Part shown: positions 4,828 through 19,849 of the stretch, piece after piece
How the letters are laid out: the number at the start of each line of letters is the position of its first letter
Position numbering within the stretch: position 1 is the first letter of the stretch
From: a virus
IMG/VR virus record: IMGVR_UViG_3300027816_000507
Location: 1-20,085 of that record
DNA length: 20,085 bases
Direction: 5' to 3' (one strand)
Position numbers and translations under genes: made by a program
Notes under the pieces: model-generated
Seen by the model: only the letters and a program-made list of their open reading frames with translations
What the model was told of the DNA's origin: nothing
The model's database searches: none

Positions 4828-5211
4828 TTATCGTTCTTCGATGGTGATGGGAGGACCAGGATCGAACGTGCCGCCCGCTGCAATGGGGCCGGACGAAGTG
4901 GGCGGTGTGCCGTCGATGCTGGACGACACCCAACGCCACCGATTGCTTGGCGTGGGGAAACGTTGTGCGAGATTTCGACGTGCGACAGCGCGCTTGCGGT
5001 AAATACGCGCAGGCGGGTCGGGTTGCGGGTCAGGCTGAGGAATGGGTGGGTCTTCGTCACCGGGCAAGTCGCCACCCGGATTGATCTCCTCGCCCGGATT
5101 GACAATCTCCTCGTCAGGCGGAGTGGTGTCTTCAGGCGGGCAACACCCTTGTGCAGACACGCTCCGCGCGCCTTCGAGCAATTGCGCGGGGATGTTGTGC
5201 TTGCAGGTCAC
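4828..5211 (-). CDS. Proline- and acid-rich hypothetical protein between two tail tubular A genes
   Basis: A 127-residue protein starting at a GTG that overlaps the upstream stop (GTGA). Three parts are visible. An N-terminal 20 residues with Cys at positions 3, 23 and 24. A Pro/Asp/Glu-rich low-complexity segment at about residues 24 to 67, strongly acidic and probably extended (for example PDEEIVNPGEEINPGGD and DPPIPQPDPQPDPP). A basic segment at about 70 to 95 (IYRKRAVARRNLAQR). A Gly/Pro-rich tail ends ITIEER. The charge blocks suggest a flexible linker or tether within the virion neck or tail. I do not recognise a family. Unbroken coding over 127 codons, the coupled start and the strong RBS of the gene after it argue that it is real. 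Confidence 0.65.
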   Translation of the reverse strand: MTCKHNIPAQLLEGARSVSAQGCCPPEDTTPPDEEIVNPGEEINPGGDLPGDEDPPIPQPDPQPDPPARIYRKRAVARRNLAQRFPTPSNRWRWVSSSIDGTPPTSSGPIAAGGTFDPGPPITIEER

Positions 5212-6397: not shown

Positions 6398-7738
6398 TTA
6401 GCGGAATCGACCGCGAACGCGGAAGGTCTGGTTGGGGTTCATGATTTCGTTCCACATGGTCGCGGCCATGTAGTCCGCGCCACTGCCGACCGTGAACGAG
6501 TAGTTGGTCGTTGTCGGGCCGGTCAGGTGGATGTTGTCGGGTGTCCAGATGGCGGGCGAGTTCAGTGCGAGTTGATACAAGTCAATGAAGATGCTGCCAA
6601 TCTCCTGCGCGATGCGATACAAGGCACGGCCACGAGTCTCGTGGTGAGTCGCGGTGTAGCCCGTGCGGAAGTCGTTGACGAGGATGTACGTCGGGCGGGG
6701 AAGTGCAGCAGCGTCATACGCAGCGTTCATTGCGTCGATGATCGCGCGGATGTTGTTGTAGTAGTTGGTCTGGTCGCCAGCGTTGAGTTGCGTCTGTTCG
6801 GCAGGGTCCGTACCAATCAGCGGGTTCGTTGAGTTTTGGCCTGCACCGCACAGCATCTGGTAATTGGGCGCAAACATCGCGTTTGCCAAGAACCACGCTG
6901 CATTGGCCGTCGTGCTGTAGGCATTAGCTCCATCGCCACCCCACTGGCGAACAGTATCGAGTGTGCAATAGCCGCCCACGCCCCACGGCGCGAGACAGAA
7001 GCCTGTCGTGCGATTACCAGCCGTGCCTCGGTAGTACGACACGGGACCAACCAGCATCCGCGTGCCAGTCTCAACAACTGCCGTGCCGCCTTCAATAAGG
7101 CCGCAACCGGGGTCGTCGGTTCCCGCACCACAGTCCATGTCAGTGAACTGCCAGCCGTCCGCGCCCGCCATAGACACGGATGACGGCGTAGCGACGTTGT
7201 TGTACGTCGGGCTTGCGTCAGTTCCAGTCTTGCGATACGACCGGAATCGAACCGTGGTCACACCTCCAGCGTGGCGATACCACGGGATGCGGGCGATGGT
7301 CTGCTGTGATGCCCACGGGTTGCCACGCACCGCGCTGCCCCAGCCCGTCAGGAACTGCTGCATGTACGGAGACGCGCTCAATGTCGGAGCATCGCCGCTG
7401 AACGGATAGTCCAGAATCTGCGTCGGTGCAATGTCAGCAATCGCCGCACTGTTGGCTTGGTCAGGCCGGAGAATCGCGCGGGCGGCAGCGAAGTTGGTGT
7501 TGGAGAAACCACCCGATGCCCAGAACGCAGAGCCGAGGCTTGCCGCGCGGCACAGGATGCCCGACCACGGCACATCCCATGTGCGGATGATGCCATGCCA
7601 CACGGGGCAGTTGGACGCATCCAGTGCTGTGCGTGAGTCGATGCCAATGCCCAACCGCACGTCGCACGCGGTCGATGCCAGCGCAGCACGAAGCCCCGCC
7701 GTGTTGTACGACGTTGGCACTTGAAGTCGGTATGACAT
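6398..7738 (-). CDS. SGNH/GDSL-type hydrolase, probably virion-associated
   Basis: A 446-residue protein in which the spaced SGNH blocks can be placed. Block I is GIGIDSRTAL, with the nucleophile Ser at residue 35 and Asp replacing the usual order G-D-S by I-D-S. Block III is GAGQNST, with Gly300-Gln301-Asn302 matching G-x-N. Block V is DNIHLTG, with Asp401 and His404 as the D-x-x-H pair. Such enzymes hydrolyse esters, often removing acetyl groups from glycans, and phages carry them on tails or spikes to modify host surface polysaccharide. No signal peptide is seen, consistent with a virion protein. The insert between blocks I and III (about 260 residues, Trp/Gly-rich) is large and may be a carbohydrate-binding or lid domain. 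The substrate is unknown. The start follows the previous stop directly (TAAATG). Confidence 0.6.
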   Translation of the reverse strand: MSYRLQVPTSYNTAGLRAALASTACDVRLGIGIDSRTALDASNCPVWHGIIRTWDVPWSGILCRAASLGSAFWASGGFSNTNFAAARAILRPDQANSAAIADIAPTQILDYPFSGDAPTLSASPYMQQFLTGWGSAVRGNPWASQQTIARIPWYRHAGGVTTVRFRSYRKTGTDASPTYNNVATPSSVSMAGADGWQFTDMDCGAGTDDPGCGLIEGGTAVVETGTRMLVGPVSYYRGTAGNRTTGFCLAPWGVGGYCTLDTVRQWGGDGANAYSTTANAAWFLANAMFAPNYQMLCGAGQNSTNPLIGTDPAEQTQLNAGDQTNYYNNIRAIIDAMNAAYDAAALPRPTYILVNDFRTGYTATHHETRGRALYRIAQEIGSIFIDLYQLALNSPAIWTPDNIHLTGPTTTNYSFTVGSGADYMAATMWNEIMNPNQTFRVRGRFR

Positions 7739-7948
7739 TTATTGCTTGTCCTCTACGCGCTCAACGCGCCGATCTACAGCCTTGATCTGTTCTTTGATGG
7801 CGGCAATGTCGGCGGTCATGCGGAACTGCATTCCCATAAGTGCCAAGATGCCTGCCGTGAGTAGTGACGTGATGACACCGAACGCCGCTTTTTCAGCGAG
7901 GCCAAACGTCACGACCTGTTCACCGTTGTCACCACGCTTCAACGTCAT
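7739..7948 (-). CDS. Small membrane protein with C-terminal coiled coil, lysis cassette
   Basis: A 69-residue protein. I start it at 7948, where the ATG shares a base with the lipoprotein stop (TGATG), rather than at an in-frame upstream codon inside that gene. Residues 1 to 20 are polar. A single transmembrane segment spans about 21 to 41 (AAFGVITSLLTAGILALMGM). Residues 45 to 69 form a heptad-like helix (IAAIKEQIKAVDRRVERVED). Proteins of this shape occur in phage lysis regions as holin partners or short inner-membrane spanin-like subunits. Its position in a holin/lipoprotein chain supports a lysis role. It is shorter than typical inner-membrane spanins, so this is only a plausible reading. 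Confidence 0.7.
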   Translation of the reverse strand: MTLKRGDNGEQVVTFGLAEKAAFGVITSLLTAGILALMGMQFRMTADIAAIKEQIKAVDRRVERVEDKQ

Positions 7949-8184
7949 CACTGCACCCCCACGGGCGTAGCCGCTTCGTCCACCGCCTGCTTGAGCCACT
8001 GGCCCGTGCGGGTCTTGATGGTCTTTTCTTCCGCCGACAGTTTGATGTCAGCCGCCACGTACTCAGCGTGTTCGGCCACAACCTTGTCCACGGCGGGCTT
8101 GATGTTGCTTGCACTGACAGTGCCGCTGACACACCCGCCCAGAGGCAGGCACATGAGCAGACAGATGATGGCTGGTTTGTTCAC
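7948..8184 (-). CDS. Small lipoprotein, possible outer-membrane spanin
   Basis: A 78-residue protein starting at a GTG that overlaps the holin stop by four bases (GTGA). The N-terminus is a lipoprotein signal: Lys at 3, a hydrophobic core IICLLMCLPLGG, then the lipobox L-G-G-C with the lipidated Cys at residue 18. Residue +2 after the Cys is Val, which would normally send it to the outer membrane. The mature 61 residues are mostly helical (IKPAVDKVVAEHAEYVAADI). A lipoprotein directly after a holin is the usual context of Rz1-type outer-membrane spanins, which join with an inner-membrane partner for the last step of lysis. The next gene, encoding a membrane/coiled-coil protein, may be that partner. 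No family match is claimed. Confidence 0.7.
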   Translation of the reverse strand: MNKPAIICLLMCLPLGGCVSGTVSASNIKPAVDKVVAEHAEYVAADIKLSAEEKTIKTRTGQWLKQAVDEAATPVGVQ

Positions 8185-8384
8185 TTGGTCACCGCCTGTT
8201 CCACAACCTTCTTGTCGCTGTACTTGCTCCACAGCACGGAGCCAACGCCGACGACAACAGCCGCCGCGACACCGACAAACGTGTTCGCTTCTTCCTGCGC
8301 GATGGTGATGCCGAAGTAGCCGACGCACACGGCAAGGGCGTAGCGGACGGCGGATTCAACCAGAGGTTTCAGAGTTGCGTTCAT
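8181..8384 (-). CDS. Putative holin, Pam3-gp28-like
   Basis: A 67-residue protein with two predicted transmembrane segments at about residues 14 to 29 (RYALAVCVGYFGITIA) and 36 to 52 (FVGVAAAVVVGVGSVLW), a short acidic turn between them (QEEAN) and a basic tail (SKYSDKK). The pattern V-R-Y-A-L near the start, G-Y in the first segment, and a Gly/Val second segment ending L-W-S then Lys residues matches the family of small phage holins typified by Pam3 gp28. Such holins form lesions in the inner membrane that trigger lysis. A good RBS (AAGGAAC) precedes the ATG. It heads a chain of three coupled genes. Confidence 0.7.
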   Translation of the reverse strand: MNATLKPLVESAVRYALAVCVGYFGITIAQEEANTFVGVAAAVVVGVGSVLWSKYSDKKVVEQAVTK

Positions 8385-12852: not shown

Positions 12853-14451
12853 TCACTGCGGGGTGTTCGTCACAGCGGAGTTGGTCAACAACTCACCAGC
12901 ACCAGCCGCGAGTTGCTTAGCCATTTCCGCTTGTGCTTCTTGCTGCGCGCGGGCTTGCTGCACCTGTGCAACTTGCTCAGGGGTCCGCACGATGGGATCG
13001 GTGATGTTGAGGTGGCGAGAGATGACTTGCAGCAGGACAGGGAGGTTGATCTCGTCAGGCAGTGGGTTCGCCGCGAGGTCGCGCGCGATGGTCGCGTACT
13101 GCACAAGCTGCTGCACCTTCTGCTGGCGAGCGACGGCAGCCGCGCCCGTAAGCAGGTTGATGCGAATCTTCTGCTTGCTCTCTGACGGCATGACCTTGTT
13201 GACGTAGTTCTTCTTCTCGGCAATCACCATCAGGCGTTGCATGATGGGGATTTGCAGCATGTCAGCCACGGGCGTGTAGACAAGGCCACGCGCACCTTCG
13301 TTTTGGGCGAGCGTGACGTTCTGCACTTCGGCGGCGGTTGTGCGTTCGCTATCACGCACCTGGCCGGGCAGGTAGAGGAAGCGACGTGCAAGCGATTCGC
13401 CAAGCTGCTGCCAGACGCGGTTCATCACCTCGGCAGACGCGAGGCTCACAGGCCCCCACGCCGCTGCATCTTGCAGCACGCCTTGACTCACACGCGCGCC
13501 ACGCACGATGCTGCCAGCGGGCTTCATCAGGTCGTCGTCACGGATGAGACTGTCATCGGCAACGAACACTTTGACGTTTACCGCCAAGCCAGCATGTTCG
13601 AGTTGGCACTTGCTCAGGCCGTTGTAGGAATTGAGGTCAGCAATGGTTTCTTCAACCGGGCCGCGACCGTAACTCTCGCCGGGAATTAGGGCGTAGGGCA
13701 CAAAGAAGTACGAACAAACGTCTTCTTCCTTTTCGGCAACCTCAACGCCAAGCACTTCCTGCCTGATTGACCACTTCTTCGTTGACTGCACCCACTCCAC
13801 CTTGGTGTAGATGTCCACCATGCGGCGGTCGTAGTCAACGTCCTGTGGGTTCTTGCCGTCGTTGGCCTTCTTCCACTCGTCGATAGCAGCCTGCGGTGCC
13901 TCGGCAATGTCGATGTTCTCACGCACGATGCCGCACAGCAAGTCGCCATACGAATCACGCATCGCCACGTAGTTGTCGCGGCGGAACACAGTGACACGCA
14001 CATCGTCGTCAAGACGGAAAGCGGTATCACCCGTGATACCGAGTTGCCGGATAGCCGCCTGCATCTGCGAGCGGAAGCCTTGCGGACGGCGGTTGTCGCT
14101 CGGGCGCAAGGCCGCTTCATCCAGCATTGCGTGCAGAATGGATTGCAGGACGAACAGACCACGCTCGGTCACGTCGCGTTCTTCCTGCGTCATCTTCGCC
14201 ATTTCGGCGCGTGATGCTTCCAAGGCGGCGAAGGGGATAACAGACGGGAACACGGACGACACCACAGTGCCAGTCCAGTTGTTCACGAGGTCACCACCAA
14301 GCGACTGCCATGTATCAGGCAGCGGCGTATCAGCGGTGTGGCCGTCAGGCGGGAGGACGTGCGGTAGCGTCAGGGCTGCGCAGCGGCGTGCCGTCGTGAG
14401 GGATTCCTGCCGCTTGCCGTCAAGCCGCATGAACATCTGCTTGATTGTCAT
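12853..14451 (-). CDS. Portal / head-tail connector protein (T7 gp8-like)
   Basis: A 532-residue protein, matching T7 gp8 (536) in length. The N-terminal part has the connector pattern: a helical opening (MRLDGKRQESLTTARRCAAL), then LPDTWQSLGGDLVNNWTGTV, which corresponds to the family's G-x-x-x-V-N-N-L-A region. The central part contains FFVPYALIPGESYGRGPVEE followed by LNSYNGLSKCQLEHA, the canonical G-x-x-Y-G-R-x-x-V/x-E segment. The C-terminus is Gln/Ala-rich. It forms the dodecameric ring at one vertex through which DNA enters and leaves. The ATG overlaps the previous stop by four bases. Confidence 0.9.
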   Translation of the reverse strand: MTIKQMFMRLDGKRQESLTTARRCAALTLPHVLPPDGHTADTPLPDTWQSLGGDLVNNWTGTVVSSVFPSVIPFAALEASRAEMAKMTQEERDVTERGLFVLQSILHAMLDEAALRPSDNRRPQGFRSQMQAAIRQLGITGDTAFRLDDDVRVTVFRRDNYVAMRDSYGDLLCGIVRENIDIAEAPQAAIDEWKKANDGKNPQDVDYDRRMVDIYTKVEWVQSTKKWSIRQEVLGVEVAEKEEDVCSYFFVPYALIPGESYGRGPVEETIADLNSYNGLSKCQLEHAGLAVNVKVFVADDSLIRDDDLMKPAGSIVRGARVSQGVLQDAAAWGPVSLASAEVMNRVWQQLGESLARRFLYLPGQVRDSERTTAAEVQNVTLAQNEGARGLVYTPVADMLQIPIMQRLMVIAEKKNYVNKVMPSESKQKIRINLLTGAAAVARQQKVQQLVQYATIARDLAANPLPDEINLPVLLQVISRHLNITDPIVRTPEQVAQVQQARAQQEAQAEMAKQLAAGAGELLTNSAVTNTPQ

Positions 14452-15299: not shown

Positions 15300-15330
15300 G
15301 TTGTTTCAATGCTAGTCTTTACTAACTTAC
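15297..15330 (-). promoter_or_regulatory. AT-rich gap after the polymerase gene, candidate phage promoter
   Basis: This 34-base stretch between the polymerase stop and the next frame is strikingly AT-rich in an otherwise GC-rich window. On the minus strand it includes GTTAGTAAAGACTAGC, which can form a six-pair hairpin with an AAAG loop (one G-T pair), then ATTGAAACAAC. There is no T-tract, so it is not an obvious terminator. In T7-like phages such AT-rich gaps ahead of the structural block often hold promoters for the phage polymerase. No consensus can be derived here. Confidence 0.3.
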
Positions 15331-17825
15331 GAGAATGCGAACTGTGAGCTGCGAACTTCGTTCAAGTCCCAGTCGCCATGATCGGGCGCGAGCGGAATTG
15401 CGTCGCCGAATCTCGCCACCCACTGTTCACGAACTTGCAGCAGCGGGTGTTCCTCGTGAAACTTGACAAACGTGTCAAGAACCACGTCGCCAACTTCCGC
15501 CGCGTCCGCTGGCTGCGACCAGAAGGAATCGAACACGCCAGCGAATGAGAGGCCCTGTGACGCGGCTTGCGTTGCAGCCATCAGGAAGTGGCACGCATCG
15601 AACGAGTGAATCAGGTTGGGCGCACACGCCGACACCTGCTTCGGCTTAGGCGTTATCTTCGTGCGGTCATCAACGCGGAACTCGCCAATCACCGTGGCAC
15701 AAAGGCTCGTGCTTTTGTTGTACGGCTGCAAGACCGGGAACCCGATGGGTGTGGTCCACGTCATCGGCTGGCCCGTCTTCGTGATGATGTCGGCACACGA
15801 TGCAATCCACGCCATGATCTGACGGGCGGGTTGAAGGTACGGAATGTCCGCCTTGGCAACGATGGACGCGACCAGCCCACGCACCTTCTTTGCAAGGTCT
15901 TTCGGGCACCCTTGTTTCTGCAAGTTGTCGTAGACCTGCTTGCGTGCCCCGTACTGCGTGACCCCGTACATCTCGGTCATCACAGGCTGCTTCACCACAT
16001 CCTTGACGATCCACGGCATGACAGCCTGCACGTCGGGGTTGTCGGCGTACTGCGTCGTGAGCGTGCGGATGGTGTAGTCCAACACATCTTTGTAGACCTT
16101 GTGCTTACGGTCGCTCGGACGCAGATTCGCCGCGCCAGCCGCGTCCGCATCACGCGCCATTGCCGCGTAATGCTGCAAGCCGTTCATCGTGCCGTCGCGC
16201 TGGCAGGGGATGTAACGCCCCACCTCGTCGTCCATAAGCCCGTAGCAGGCAGCCAGGAACTGAAACGGCTCTGCCGCCCGCTTCCAGAACTCATCGCTGT
16301 GCGGGTCGCTACAGGCTCGTGTGATGTTGCTGGCGTTGTCCTCCGTCCACTTCGCACGCTCGGCAATCGGCACGTCATCCACGCCGTACATATTGGCCGC
16401 GTGGACCATGAGCCAATACCGCCCGTCGTTGGTCATCGGCTTGTCGCTCGCCATGAGCATCAGCGAACGTCGTGCGTCGTCCCCGTGGTGGTTGAGCATG
16501 GGCGGCACAGGGAAACACCGACCACGGAAGTCCAGCATGTGAGGCAGGTAGAACCGCCGCCCCAGCATCTTCTCACACATGGCGTGCGTGCTTGCCACCT
16601 GCTGAATAACGCCAAGGTGACCGATGCGGTGAACTTCCCACTCGATGCACGAACGCTTCCACGCGCGGTGAATCTTCTTGTTCGTCTCGGCAGCGTCGGG
16701 ACGCATGGGCCGCGTCTTGGGGTACAGGCTGGGCAGCGACCCGATTTCTTCGCCCGTCCGCAAGAGTTCCTGCTGAATGCGGAGGATGCGTTCGTTGACC
16801 ATCCACGGCTGTGACGCACAAGCGTCGATGCCGCGAAACACCTTCGTCATGTCCGCTTCACGGATCATCCGCTTCTGGATGGGGTGAGGCTTGGCAACCA
16901 GCGGTGTGCGAATCTTGATGTATCCACCCTGCACAATCGACGACCCTTCCTCCATCGCATCCACCCACGCAAACGGTGTCATCACCATCGGCTCGTAGAT
17001 TGGGCGAAGGACGGCGCGGGCGGCATGAGCTTCGTCGATAATACGGCTTGCTTCCGGCGTAAGTTCCATCACGCGGCGTGCGCGACCTGTGAAGCTGCTG
17101 ATGCGGGTGCGACTTTCGACGAACGCCTGATAGGGCGTGTCCTCGTCCATCACCACGAGCATCGGCATCGCCACGTTGATAGCTGCCGCCCCGACATTCA
17201 TAAACGCGCGCGGGACCAGGTTCATGTCGGGCGAGAGTTCGAGCTTGCGGACGCATTGCAGCACGCGCTTGGGGTACGCGAGCTTGCGGTTTGTCATCAA
17301 GATGCGAAGGTGCTGGAAGTCCTCGTCGGCTGTCCAGTCCCATTCCTCGCCCATCTGCTCCTTCTTGCGGCGAAGGGCAAGTTCGTCGTCACGCCACGAT
17401 TCGCCAAACTGCGACTGCAAGACTTGCGCCGTGATGTTCTTGCCCAGCGTGTCGGCCAGACGATCCATACGAATCGCGGGCCGTCCAGACTTGGCAACCA
17501 CCTCACCGCGCAGCAGCAGCGAGAACACCGTGCGGAGGAAGATGGTCGCACACTCGTTTGCGTCGGCGTTGTAGTACACGGGCACGCAGTACGTCGCGCC
17601 CTTGAACATCTCGCCGGAGCGACACTGTGCGATGAAGGCTGCGAAGGCTTGCGTGACCGTGGGCATCCAGGCATCCGTGAAGATGCGTGCCACAGGCAGG
17701 TCGCACCCGTCACCACGCTTGGTTGCGTCACTGACGTTCTTCCAGTAGCGGTCTTTCCCGGCTTGAATAGCGTCCTGCTCCAGCCGGATTTGTTCGTCGT
17801 ATTGCGTCCCTGCAAGGATGCTCAT
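15327..17825 (-). CDS. Single-subunit DNA-directed RNA polymerase (T7-like)
   Basis: An 832-residue polymerase (T7 RNAP has 883) that would transcribe phage genes from its own promoters. Motif A is QRDGTMNGLQHYAAMARD, with the catalytic Asp at residue 544 (T7 D537) and the family's G-x-Q-H-x-x-A-M-x-R-D. Motif B has VKDVVKQPVMTEMYGVTQYG, with Lys612 and Tyr620 spaced as T7 K631 and Y639. Motif C is GVFDSFW, with catalytic Asp766 (T7 D812). The residue before it is Phe765, where T7 has His811. The extreme C-terminus QFAFS resembles T7's DFAFA. The start overlaps a 55-residue gene by four bases and has RBS AAAGGGA. Its location directly upstream of the structural genes is the phiKMV-type arrangement. 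Confidence 0.93.
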   Translation of the reverse strand: MSILAGTQYDEQIRLEQDAIQAGKDRYWKNVSDATKRGDGCDLPVARIFTDAWMPTVTQAFAAFIAQCRSGEMFKGATYCVPVYYNADANECATIFLRTVFSLLLRGEVVAKSGRPAIRMDRLADTLGKNITAQVLQSQFGESWRDDELALRRKKEQMGEEWDWTADEDFQHLRILMTNRKLAYPKRVLQCVRKLELSPDMNLVPRAFMNVGAAAINVAMPMLVVMDEDTPYQAFVESRTRISSFTGRARRVMELTPEASRIIDEAHAARAVLRPIYEPMVMTPFAWVDAMEEGSSIVQGGYIKIRTPLVAKPHPIQKRMIREADMTKVFRGIDACASQPWMVNERILRIQQELLRTGEEIGSLPSLYPKTRPMRPDAAETNKKIHRAWKRSCIEWEVHRIGHLGVIQQVASTHAMCEKMLGRRFYLPHMLDFRGRCFPVPPMLNHHGDDARRSLMLMASDKPMTNDGRYWLMVHAANMYGVDDVPIAERAKWTEDNASNITRACSDPHSDEFWKRAAEPFQFLAACYGLMDDEVGRYIPCQRDGTMNGLQHYAAMARDADAAGAANLRPSDRKHKVYKDVLDYTIRTLTTQYADNPDVQAVMPWIVKDVVKQPVMTEMYGVTQYGARKQVYDNLQKQGCPKDLAKKVRGLVASIVAKADIPYLQPARQIMAWIASCADIITKTGQPMTWTTPIGFPVLQPYNKSTSLCATVIGEFRVDDRTKITPKPKQVSACAPNLIHSFDACHFLMAATQAASQGLSFAGVFDSFWSQPADAAEVGDVVLDTFVKFHEEHPLLQVREQWVARFGDAIPLAPDHGDWDLNEVRSSQFAFS

Positions 17826-17989
17826 GTGGTCCCTTTCAGTTGGTCCACCAACTTCATCATCTCGCGTTCAACCTCGATGACTTCGTGCATCATCGCCTGG
17901 CCTGCGTTGAACCGACGCTTGATGTCGGTCCACTTGTTGACCGCCTGCACGATGGCGGTGAGTTGTTCCGGTGTTGCGTAGATGGTCAC
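17822..17989 (-). CDS. Hypothetical 55-residue helical protein
   Basis: A small gene filling the space between the secreted protein and the polymerase. It starts at a GTG overlapping the upstream stop (GTGA) and ends in an ATGA overlap with the polymerase start. The product begins VTIYATPEQLTAIVQAVNKW and continues as an amphipathic helix (HEVIEVEREMMKLVDQLKGT). The exact four-base overlaps at both ends are the main evidence that it is real. No family is recognised. Confidence 0.65.
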   Translation of the reverse strand: MTIYATPEQLTAIVQAVNKWTDIKRRFNAGQAMMHEVIEVEREMMKLVDQLKGTT

Positions 17990-19428
17990 TTGCTGCGTGC
18001 CCTTTCAATGATGCCGCTCGTCTCAAACTGCGGCCCCCACTCGCCGGACTTGCGGGAGAGGAGCGTGCGGATGATGCTGTCCCAATCTTCGTTCGTCTTC
18101 GTGGGCTTCACGTCGTTGTCGCCGATCCGCACGTCGCCCAGCGGCACACGCTCGACACCGCCGCCTTGCGCCGTGGGCGGCATCCACGGGCGGGGTACGC
18201 CGCGCTGGATGTTGTTCTCGATGATGGTGGGGCTGCCCAGCATGTACGAGATGCCCCACTGTGCAGGCTCGCCTGCGCGGGGTGCGTCTAGCAGGTTGTT
18301 GCTCACGATGGCGGAAGTCCAGACTGTTCGCGTCGGGTCGGTCGCGTTGAACGCCATCGGGTGACCTGTGCCAATGCCGGTGTTGAAGTCGTAGCAGACG
18401 TTTGACATGACGGTGAAATCGCCGCCGCGTGCTTGGACGGACGCGCTGCCGGGGCTGACAATCCAGTTGTGCGTGACGATGCGCGTCGCGCCCGCCGTGT
18501 GCACGAGGTACATGCCGTGCGAGAACTGGTCGCGGTTGCCCGTGTTGAACAGGACGTTCTGCTCAACGAGCGTCATCGTGTCGGCGGATGCGTAGATGCC
18601 TTGGCTGTGGCTGGCGGGGTGGCGTTGGTCGCGGATGATGTTGCGGCGGATGCGGACAGGGCCGGTTCGCTTGTCCATGCCCTGAATCGAAACTCCGATG
18701 GCTCCGCCGACGAGTTCGCAGTCTTCGATGAGGATGTTTCCGGCGTCGCCTTGGATTGCAACCATTGCCCCGTGGTTCTCGCCGACAAGTCGTAAACCGC
18801 GAATCTCGATGTACCGCAACCCGCCGACAATTCGCACGCCCGCGCCGAGTCCGTTGGGAATACGAAGTGTTGGCCGCTCCCCGTTTGGTCCGGGCAGTCC
18901 ACGGATGACGAGAGGTCGGCCAGCGATGCCGCCGTAAGCCAAGCCGTCCATGCCGGGCCAGTTGATTGCGAAGTCATAAGGCTCACTCTGCCAAGGAACC
19001 TCGATGATGGCGGGGGTGCCACGAACAGCAGGTCGCTCGTCCTGATGAGCCACTCCCACCCCAACTGCTTCAGCAGAAACGATGGCAAGGGATTGGAGAA
19101 CAGCACCCACAGTCCGCATCCGTCCATCACTATCACCGATTCTAACGACTGGGCATCCCATGCAGATGACAGGGGTAAAGCCTCCGTTGGAACATGGCCC
19201 ACCAGCAAGAACAGCCAGCCAGTCCGTGTAATCTCGGTCATCGGGGAACACTCCATCGCCGTTGAAGTCGATGCTGTCGCACGTCGGGCAATCGGCACCC
19301 GCGAGGACGTTGGCAAAGTCGGTTGTGTCTTGATCTGACGGGAACACCCCGTCGTTGTTGAAGTCGAGGTCGGCACACTGCGCGAGGGCGGGTGTGGCGA
19401 GAAGTAACGCTGTCCATGCGAGTTTCAT
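17986..19428 (-). CDS. Secreted protein with planctomycete-type dockerin repeats and a beta-helix domain
   Basis: A 480-residue protein starting at 19428, chosen for the RBS AAGGACT and the signal peptide (MKLAWTALLLATPALA, predicted cleavage after Ala16). Two tandem repeats follow: DFNNDGVFPSDQD (residues 22 to 34) and DFNGDGVFPDDRD (54 to 66), each ending F/W-x-x-V-L-A-G then Cys. These are EF-hand-like calcium loops of the dockerin type abundant in exported planctomycete proteins. From about residue 180 a series of short strands with Asn turns (YIEIRGLRLVGENHG; ILIEDCELVGGAIGV; RIRRNIIRDQ; TIIENNIQRG) indicates a right-handed parallel beta-helix of the pectate-lyase/NosD type. It should be exported by the infected cell, unlike a normal tail spike. 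It lies in the operon upstream of the RNA polymerase, so it is likely expressed early. Substrate and role are unknown. Confidence 0.85.
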   Translation of the reverse strand: MKLAWTALLLATPALAQCADLDFNNDGVFPSDQDTTDFANVLAGADCPTCDSIDFNGDGVFPDDRDYTDWLAVLAGGPCSNGGFTPVICMGCPVVRIGDSDGRMRTVGAVLQSLAIVSAEAVGVGVAHQDERPAVRGTPAIIEVPWQSEPYDFAINWPGMDGLAYGGIAGRPLVIRGLPGPNGERPTLRIPNGLGAGVRIVGGLRYIEIRGLRLVGENHGAMVAIQGDAGNILIEDCELVGGAIGVSIQGMDKRTGPVRIRRNIIRDQRHPASHSQGIYASADTMTLVEQNVLFNTGNRDQFSHGMYLVHTAGATRIVTHNWIVSPGSASVQARGGDFTVMSNVCYDFNTGIGTGHPMAFNATDPTRTVWTSAIVSNNLLDAPRAGEPAQWGISYMLGSPTIIENNIQRGVPRPWMPPTAQGGGVERVPLGDVRIGDNDVKPTKTNEDWDSIIRTLLSRKSGEWGPQFETSGIIERARSK

Positions 19429-19448
19429 GCGAGTCCTTTCGTTAGAGT

Positions 19449-19643
19449 TCACTGTCCCCCTCCATTCGCGGCGGCGATCACATCGCGAAGCCCAGCGTGC
19501 AGCCGCGCCCATGATTCGTCCTTGTCCATCGCCCTGTCCGCGTTGTCGATTGCGTCCTCTGCGGCCTGCCTGCACTTCTCCACCGTCGCGAGGGCTTCCG
19601 CCAGCCGTGTTTCCAAGTCGTTGATGTATGCGCTGTCGCTCAC
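19449..19643 (-). CDS. Hypothetical 64-residue acidic helical protein
   Basis: It starts at a GTG overlapping the upstream stop by four bases (GTGA), with AAGGAG eight bases ahead. An in-frame upstream ATG lies inside the preceding gene and lacks such support. The product (VSDSAYINDLETRLAEALAT, then EKCRQAAEDAIDNADRAMDK) is nearly all helix with heptad spacing, so a coiled coil is likely, and ends in AANGGGQ. Short helical proteins like this are common in early phage regions. No family is recognised. Confidence 0.65.
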   Translation of the reverse strand: MSDSAYINDLETRLAEALATVEKCRQAAEDAIDNADRAMDKDESWARLHAGLRDVIAAANGGGQ

Positions 19644-19849
19644 TTCTTGCTCCTTTTCTTCGCCTTCTTCGCGGGGGACCACGGGAACGTCACGTCGGGT
19701 TTCAGGTACTTCGATGGCACCTTTACATTGCACTCACCTTGGTCGCGAATCGCGTAGTGACACTTGATCCGAACCCAGTGAGATCCGTTGTCGTCGATGT
19801 GATACTCGCCCTTGACCCACACCGTCTGACCCTTCTCGTACTTGCTCAT
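19640..19849 (-). CDS. Hypothetical 69-residue protein with a basic tail
   Basis: It starts at 19849 with a textbook RBS (AAGGAG) five bases before the ATG, which overlaps the previous stop (ATGA). The first 50 residues are strand-rich (QTVWVKGEYHIDDNGSHWVR; ECNVKVPSKYLKPDV) and may form a small barrel of SH3 type. The C-terminus is a run of basic residues (PAKKAKKRSKK), suggesting nucleic-acid binding or electrostatic contacts. No specific family is recognised. Confidence 0.7.
   Translation of the reverse strand: MSKYEKGQTVWVKGEYHIDDNGSHWVRIKCHYAIRDQGECNVKVPSKYLKPDVTFPWSPAKKAKKRSKK

Follow-up and report, generated by a model that had tools for sequence, protein, structure and literature searches.

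Phages are known to place proteins on the surface of their host cells, and surface-exclusion lipoproteins of the T5 Llp type are phage-encoded, exported and located on the infected cell. In freshwater planctomycetes of the Nemodlikiaceae, a hypothetical surface complex of cohesins and dockerins involving peptidases has been proposed and named the 'Planctosome' (Andrei et al. 2019, PMC6461901), and a cultured planctomycete phage has been described that is chronic and carries nitrogen genes (PMC10945688). The literature that we searched yielded nothing relevant on planctomycete phages with dockerins and no paper on a phage-encoded tag of the dockerin type described below, and none of 50,697 named phage records contained such a tag.

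The DNA analysed here (the window) is a 20,085-base IMG/VR virus record that is linear, probably a fragment, and has all of its major genes running from right to left. Pfam and PHROGs searches recognised portal, scaffold, capsid, tail tube and nozzle proteins together with a T7-like RNA polymerase (RNAP), which shares only about 27% identity with its best named-phage relative among the matches listed, so the window represents a distant T7-like lineage. The features around the gene of interest, which encodes a 480-residue protein, are as follows.

15327-17825, minus strand: T7-like single-subunit RNA polymerase (PF00940, 7e-89)
17822-17989, minus strand: p55, a 55-residue open reading frame with a 4-base overlap with both the 480-residue gene and the RNAP gene
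17986-19428, minus strand: coding sequence of the 480-residue protein (signal peptide, dockerin-like pair and beta-helix)
18094-19011, minus strand: right-handed beta-helix, residues about 140-445
18979-19188, minus strand: variable linker and beta-helix N-cap, residues 81-150
19189-19380, minus strand: dockerin-like pair, residues 17-80
19231-19269, minus strand: calcium-type loop 2, D54-F-N-G-D-G-V-F-P-D-D-R-D66
19327-19365, minus strand: calcium-type loop 1, D22-F-N-N-D-G-V-F-P-S-D-Q-D34
19381-19428, minus strand: Sec signal peptide, residues 1-16, ending ALA/QC
19434-19439, minus strand: Shine-Dalgarno sequence AAAGGA, 5 nt upstream of the ATG of the 480-residue gene
19449-19733, minus strand: p94, a small gene upstream of the 480-residue gene, with 50-55% relatives in the related viral contigs L004 and L005

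A sequence-only reading of the window had described the gene as locked into the RNA polymerase operon by a four-base overlap. The coupling stands, with p55 as the direct partner: the end of the 480-residue gene overlaps p55 in GTGA, and the p55 stop overlaps the RNAP start in ATGA. Elsewhere in the window, positions 6398-7738 (minus strand) encode a 446-residue tail-region protein with GDSL/SGNH-like signatures recognised by eye (GIGIDSR, DNIHLT); in another contig (L075), the similarly placed protein matches PF13472 at 19.8 bits, below the cut-off, and the window protein is a candidate tail-borne esterase. Positions 7739-8384 (minus strand) hold a lysis-like cassette of a two-transmembrane holin-like protein, a small lipoprotein (lipobox LGGC) and a one-transmembrane coiled-coil protein in overlapping order, and positions 4828-5211 (minus strand), amid the tail genes, encode a Pro/Asp-rich protein of 127 residues with an approximately 42% relative in the L004 contig.

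The two tandem D-x-N-x-D-G-V-F-P loops that had first drawn attention to the protein are present at D22-D34 and D54-D66, within two copies of a unit of the form C..[IL]DFN-x-DGVFP-x-D-x-D...LAG..C that are bounded by Cys18, 47, 50 and 79. Across 23 aligned phage and host tags, C2, C31, C34 and the loop Asp/Asn residues are invariant and C63 is nearly so. An AlphaFold2 (AF2) model of the pair built from these 23 sequences (pLDDT 91.7) shows two loop-helix units. When this model was searched against the PDB with Foldseek, all six matches were dockerin entries (TM up to 0.65/0.69, E 0.18), the VIA Z score was 6.7, and the four sequences picked by a profile of the pair were all dockerin-bearing; the PDB matches are weak singly (E 0.08-5) but unanimous. 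Compared with type I dockerins (PF00404; CaDoc0917 in 6kge), the phage pair has the same predicted fold of two loop-helix repeats but carries four cysteines, has a sub-threshold Pfam score and has loops longer by one residue, with alignment to 6kge placing a one-residue insertion in each loop and Asp at position 13 in both rather than at position 12 of the 12-residue canonical type I loop. Pfam Dockerin_1 (PF00404) gave no match at E<=10 to the phage pair or to typical host tags, and the NCBIfam library recognised neither the phage repeats nor the matching host tags. As modelled, the repeats are a divergent dockerin fold and not type I dockerins.

The repeats had also been called planctomycete-type, and this holds: they match planctomycete proteins at E-values down to approximately 1e-27, beyond what chance would give, and when GTDB genomes were scanned with the pair, only planctomycete MAGs came back. 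At the top of the scan, with up to 71% identity, was Phycisphaerae bacterium LBMAG_Planctomycetes_epi.bin3 (G001), which we take from the LBMAG in the record name to come from Lake Biwa. Each of four planctomycete MAGs (G001, G002, G003 and G004) contains 114-193 matches to the pair. In all 37 fetched host loci the pair forms the extreme C-terminus, and nearly all of these proteins have a signal-like start, which gives the pair the look of a tag for sorting or anchoring; judged against the Pfam and NCBIfam libraries, the Cys-bounded pair looks like a putative tag family that has not been described. What needs correcting in the earlier description is the position, normally C-terminal in the host and N-terminal in the phage, along with the loops, which diverge from type I. 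A further suggestion, that the protein attaches to a host scaffold, gained no support, as no PF00963 cohesin was found in the four host MAGs, which are possibly incomplete and in which cohesins may have diverged.

Two chromosomal genes of G001 (L052 and L056) encode the full architecture of the phage protein, with aligned identities of 39% and 34%. Both share with it a signal-type start, an N-terminal pair and a beta-helix with SHSQG, QARGG and GHPM motifs, and they are the only host paralogues seen in which the tag is N-terminal as it is in the window phage; nevertheless, the phage tag is nearer to the C-terminal tags of the host than to those of L052 and L056. One of the two sits among housekeeping genes, beside argCBFG and topoisomerase VI genes. 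Of the 298 class-level and 150 family-level genomes covered, G001 alone had relatives this close. By these sequence relationships, the phage carries a member of a family of predicted exported planctomycete beta-helix proteins. The window tag has a mean identity of 61% to G001 tags versus 42-54% to those of other MAGs, and tetranucleotide similarity is 0.86 to G001 versus 0.65-0.83 to other MAGs. In a tag tree of 70 columns, in which many forks are open, the window tag nests among G001 tags (95/87) whereas the tag of a phage-like contig in G003 groups with G003/G004 host tags (95/84) and not with those of G001; the tetranucleotide similarity of that contig to its own MAG is 0.91. Together, the beta-helix, the tag and the tetranucleotides point to a G001-like planctomycete as the probable host of the window phage. 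Acquisition of the gene from a planctomycete host, as first proposed, is likely, with the tree giving no root for this direction.

The 480-residue protein begins with MKLAWTALLLATPALA/QC, a Sec-type start, and the call is supported by a crude scan of the 29 window open reading frames for a hydrophobic stretch plus an AxA site. The homologue in L005 has a short Sec signal as in the window, while those in L003 and L004 have a stretch of approximately 45 residues and a transmembrane segment ending ARA/QC, the ribosome-binding site ahead of the start codon being the same; L003, L004 and L005 all have AGGAAGGAAAG at the position matching the window Shine-Dalgarno sequence. Since these differing N-termini share the same cleavage-type ending, what seems to be conserved is the membrane crossing of the remainder, and we infer that the infected cell probably exports the protein. 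The previously claimed export is backed by the replacement of the signal sequence with retention of a cleavage-like site, but no result supports the accompanying claim that it happens early; among the repeat families shown, there was no clear promoter-like family that would give the transcription class. The predicted exported part is under purifying selection, with dN/dS of 0.18-0.36 over residues 17-478, 0.08-0.12 for the dockerin part in five of six comparisons (the sixth, 0.45, is noisy at very low divergence) and 0.10-0.37 for the beta-helix in the full-length gene. The most variable part is residues 81-150, where amino acid identity between the window and its kin is 34-46% compared with 77-92% in the flanks, and this variability of the N-cap and first coils suggests changing glycan targets.

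The beta-helix domain read from the sequence was confirmed by structure prediction. Pfam PF13229 scores 21.5 bits on the 480-residue protein, below the cut-off of 25.9, and searches of the whole protein with NCBIfam, PHROGs and phmmer against the PDB gave nothing useful; the AF2 model of the whole protein (mean pLDDT 72.6, and 80-93 across most of the helix) contains a right-handed helix at residues about 140-445. In VIA-align comparisons, enzymes and spikes with beta-helices both scored Z 24-28 against this helix, including rhamnogalacturonan lyase (28.3), Vibrio cholerae RbmB (28.1) and Pel9A (27.5) among enzymes and phi29 gp12 (26.2), the Dettilon spike (24.9) and the Sf6 spike (24.8) among phage proteins. 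A fold common to lyases and spikes does not give the function. RbmB and the PL9-type lyases (9ozl, 5olr, 1ru4; Z 27-28) are secreted glycan enzymes and, like the phage helix, right-handed beta-helices, but the phage helix is at most 14% identical to them and their active site is not matched. Residues H274, Q332 and R334 are conserved in the beta-helix and are only candidates for a catalytic role.

The same comparison bears on two other readings of the protein. One is that it is a secreted auxiliary enzyme, similar to RbmB, which breaks down polysaccharide of the environment or the matrix and so either feeds the infected cell or frees progeny from matrix, with the tag serving only to retain it at the cell. 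Planctomycetes are polysaccharide degraders and the best structural neighbours are polysaccharide lyases including RbmB, but Foldseek of the beta-helix gave no significant E-value (best 3e-3), identity to structural neighbours is 10-17%, no known catalytic set was mapped and metabolic partners were not seen nearby; we consider this reading rather doubtful. The other, allowed for in the sequence-only reading, is a virion spike that would use its beta-helix at the tail to bind or degrade host glycan, the signal-like start serving as a hydrophobic segment for attachment. Podophages often carry beta-helix spikes and the fold is that of the phi29 gp12, Dettilon and Sf6 spikes. However, the start is of the signal type, and the two unrelated-looking N-termini both end in AxA/QC; the four conserved cysteines are as in host exported proteins; the gene lies before the RNAP gene and outside the tail module; its close relatives are host chromosomal proteins; and the tail-region protein at 6398-7738, with its GDSL-like relative, is a better spike candidate. 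Homologues were also absent from the 50,697 named phage records, as they were from named plasmids, and on this ground an ordinary tail spike common to phages of other phyla was rejected. A spike is accordingly unlikely, and we infer instead that the protein is probably surface-tethered.

The earlier impression that no T7-like phage carries such repeats agrees with the named records, but the gene is not confined to a single T7-like phage. Eight viral records other than the window contain homologues, two of these records being strains identical to the window, and a ninth (L103) contains the C-terminal end of the gene. In L003 the RNA polymerase is 75% and the gene 72% identical to the window versions, whereas L004, a 47-kb T7-like contig with replication-type genes on one side of the gene and the RNAP and structural genes on the other, has an RNA polymerase only 33% identical. 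Over 1,118 bp that span the beta-helix part and p55, L003 and L004 are 93% identical, and the similarity ends at the RNAP gene, the RNA polymerases being about a third identical; a related p55 follows the gene in both. A siphovirus-like contig with tape measure and neck proteins (G008, L077) encodes the last 196 residues, 91% identical, in a copy cut by the contig end, and its DNA match (603 bp, 89%) stops at the gene end. More distant homologues are found at 36% in L094, a 58-kb viral contig, and at 25% in the 39-kb phage-like contig of G003, in which terminase, primase and DNA methyltransferase are present. By these alignments, the gene is a cassette that has moved between quite different viruses.

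A second DNA block, comprising the end of p90 and the p213 gene, is 86% identical between L003 (10009-10987) and L004 (20369-21347), so mosaicism is not limited to the 480-residue gene. The L004 contig (G006, L076) also encodes a tyrosine integrase at 40227-41339 (PF00589, 2e-14), suggesting that this T7-like planctomycete phage may be temperate. Chimeric assembly was rejected, as the family occurs in viral records of several separate IMG metagenomes and in a GTDB MAG. In the tail gene region of G008 (L077), positions 13839-14105 (plus strand) encode a small lipoprotein (lipobox LAGC) that is almost only a dockerin-like pair, with 19.5 bits to Pfam Dockerin_1 (cut-off 22.9) and 21.3 bits to an EF-hand pair.

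The other fetched viral relatives of the RNAP, beyond the close kin and L004, have no homologue in the available sequence, and carriage of the gene is therefore not a general feature of T7-like phages. Wherever a fetched contig has an RNAP at least 75% identical to that of the window, the gene lies directly upstream of the RNAP gene. This retention weighs against the view that a host gene was picked up by chance and rides as a passenger with no benefit to the phage. The homologues are indeed ordinary host genes, but the gene has reached several phage lineages, is translationally coupled and is under purifying selection; a neutral passenger was rejected on the selection and on the retention among close RNAP kin, and we consider it extremely unlikely. 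It is very unlikely, too, that the tag acts as a competitor that fills host docking sites and displaces host surface proteins. Such a role would suit the little G008 lipoprotein and the resemblance of phage tags to the tags of their own hosts, but the full-length gene keeps a large beta-helix under the purifying selection given above.

A gene that is mobile between viruses and joins a host tag to a beta-helix suggests that these viruses remodel or guard the surface of the infected cell. We see about an even chance that the infected or lysogenic cell makes a surface-tethered protein that cuts or covers glycan, with the benefit being exclusion or easier release. On such a model the infected cell, which in at least one relative is possibly lysogenic, would export the protein through its Sec signal, and calcium and disulphides would fold the tag outside the cytoplasm. 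A putative surface receptor of the host itself would then recognise the phage tag, and the tethered beta-helix would cut or cover a surface glycan, such that further phages may be excluded or progeny and debris may be kept from sticking. More tentatively, it is possible that unrelated planctomycete phages share a mobile cassette in which a host-matched tag plugs a phage glycan enzyme into the surface machinery, rewiring the surface of the infected or lysogenic cell.

With well over 100 tagged proteins in planctomycetes, the phage copy of the tag offers a small natural probe of the sorting system, and the tag signature could be used to assign planctomycete hosts to viral contigs. The putative docking tag resembles the hypothetical planctosome in being dockerin-like and proposed to act at the surface of freshwater planctomycetes, whereas the planctosome concerns peptidases and no phage. 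The receptor blocked by T5 Llp is a protein, and Llp lacks a glycan-enzyme domain; the phage protein has no sequence relation to Llp, but the proposed exported placement on the infected cell is alike. Taken together, these comparisons describe a mobile, selected and predicted exported planctomycete-phage gene built from host parts, which would belong in kind with the phage surface-modifying proteins and would be new among them in using a host docking tag.
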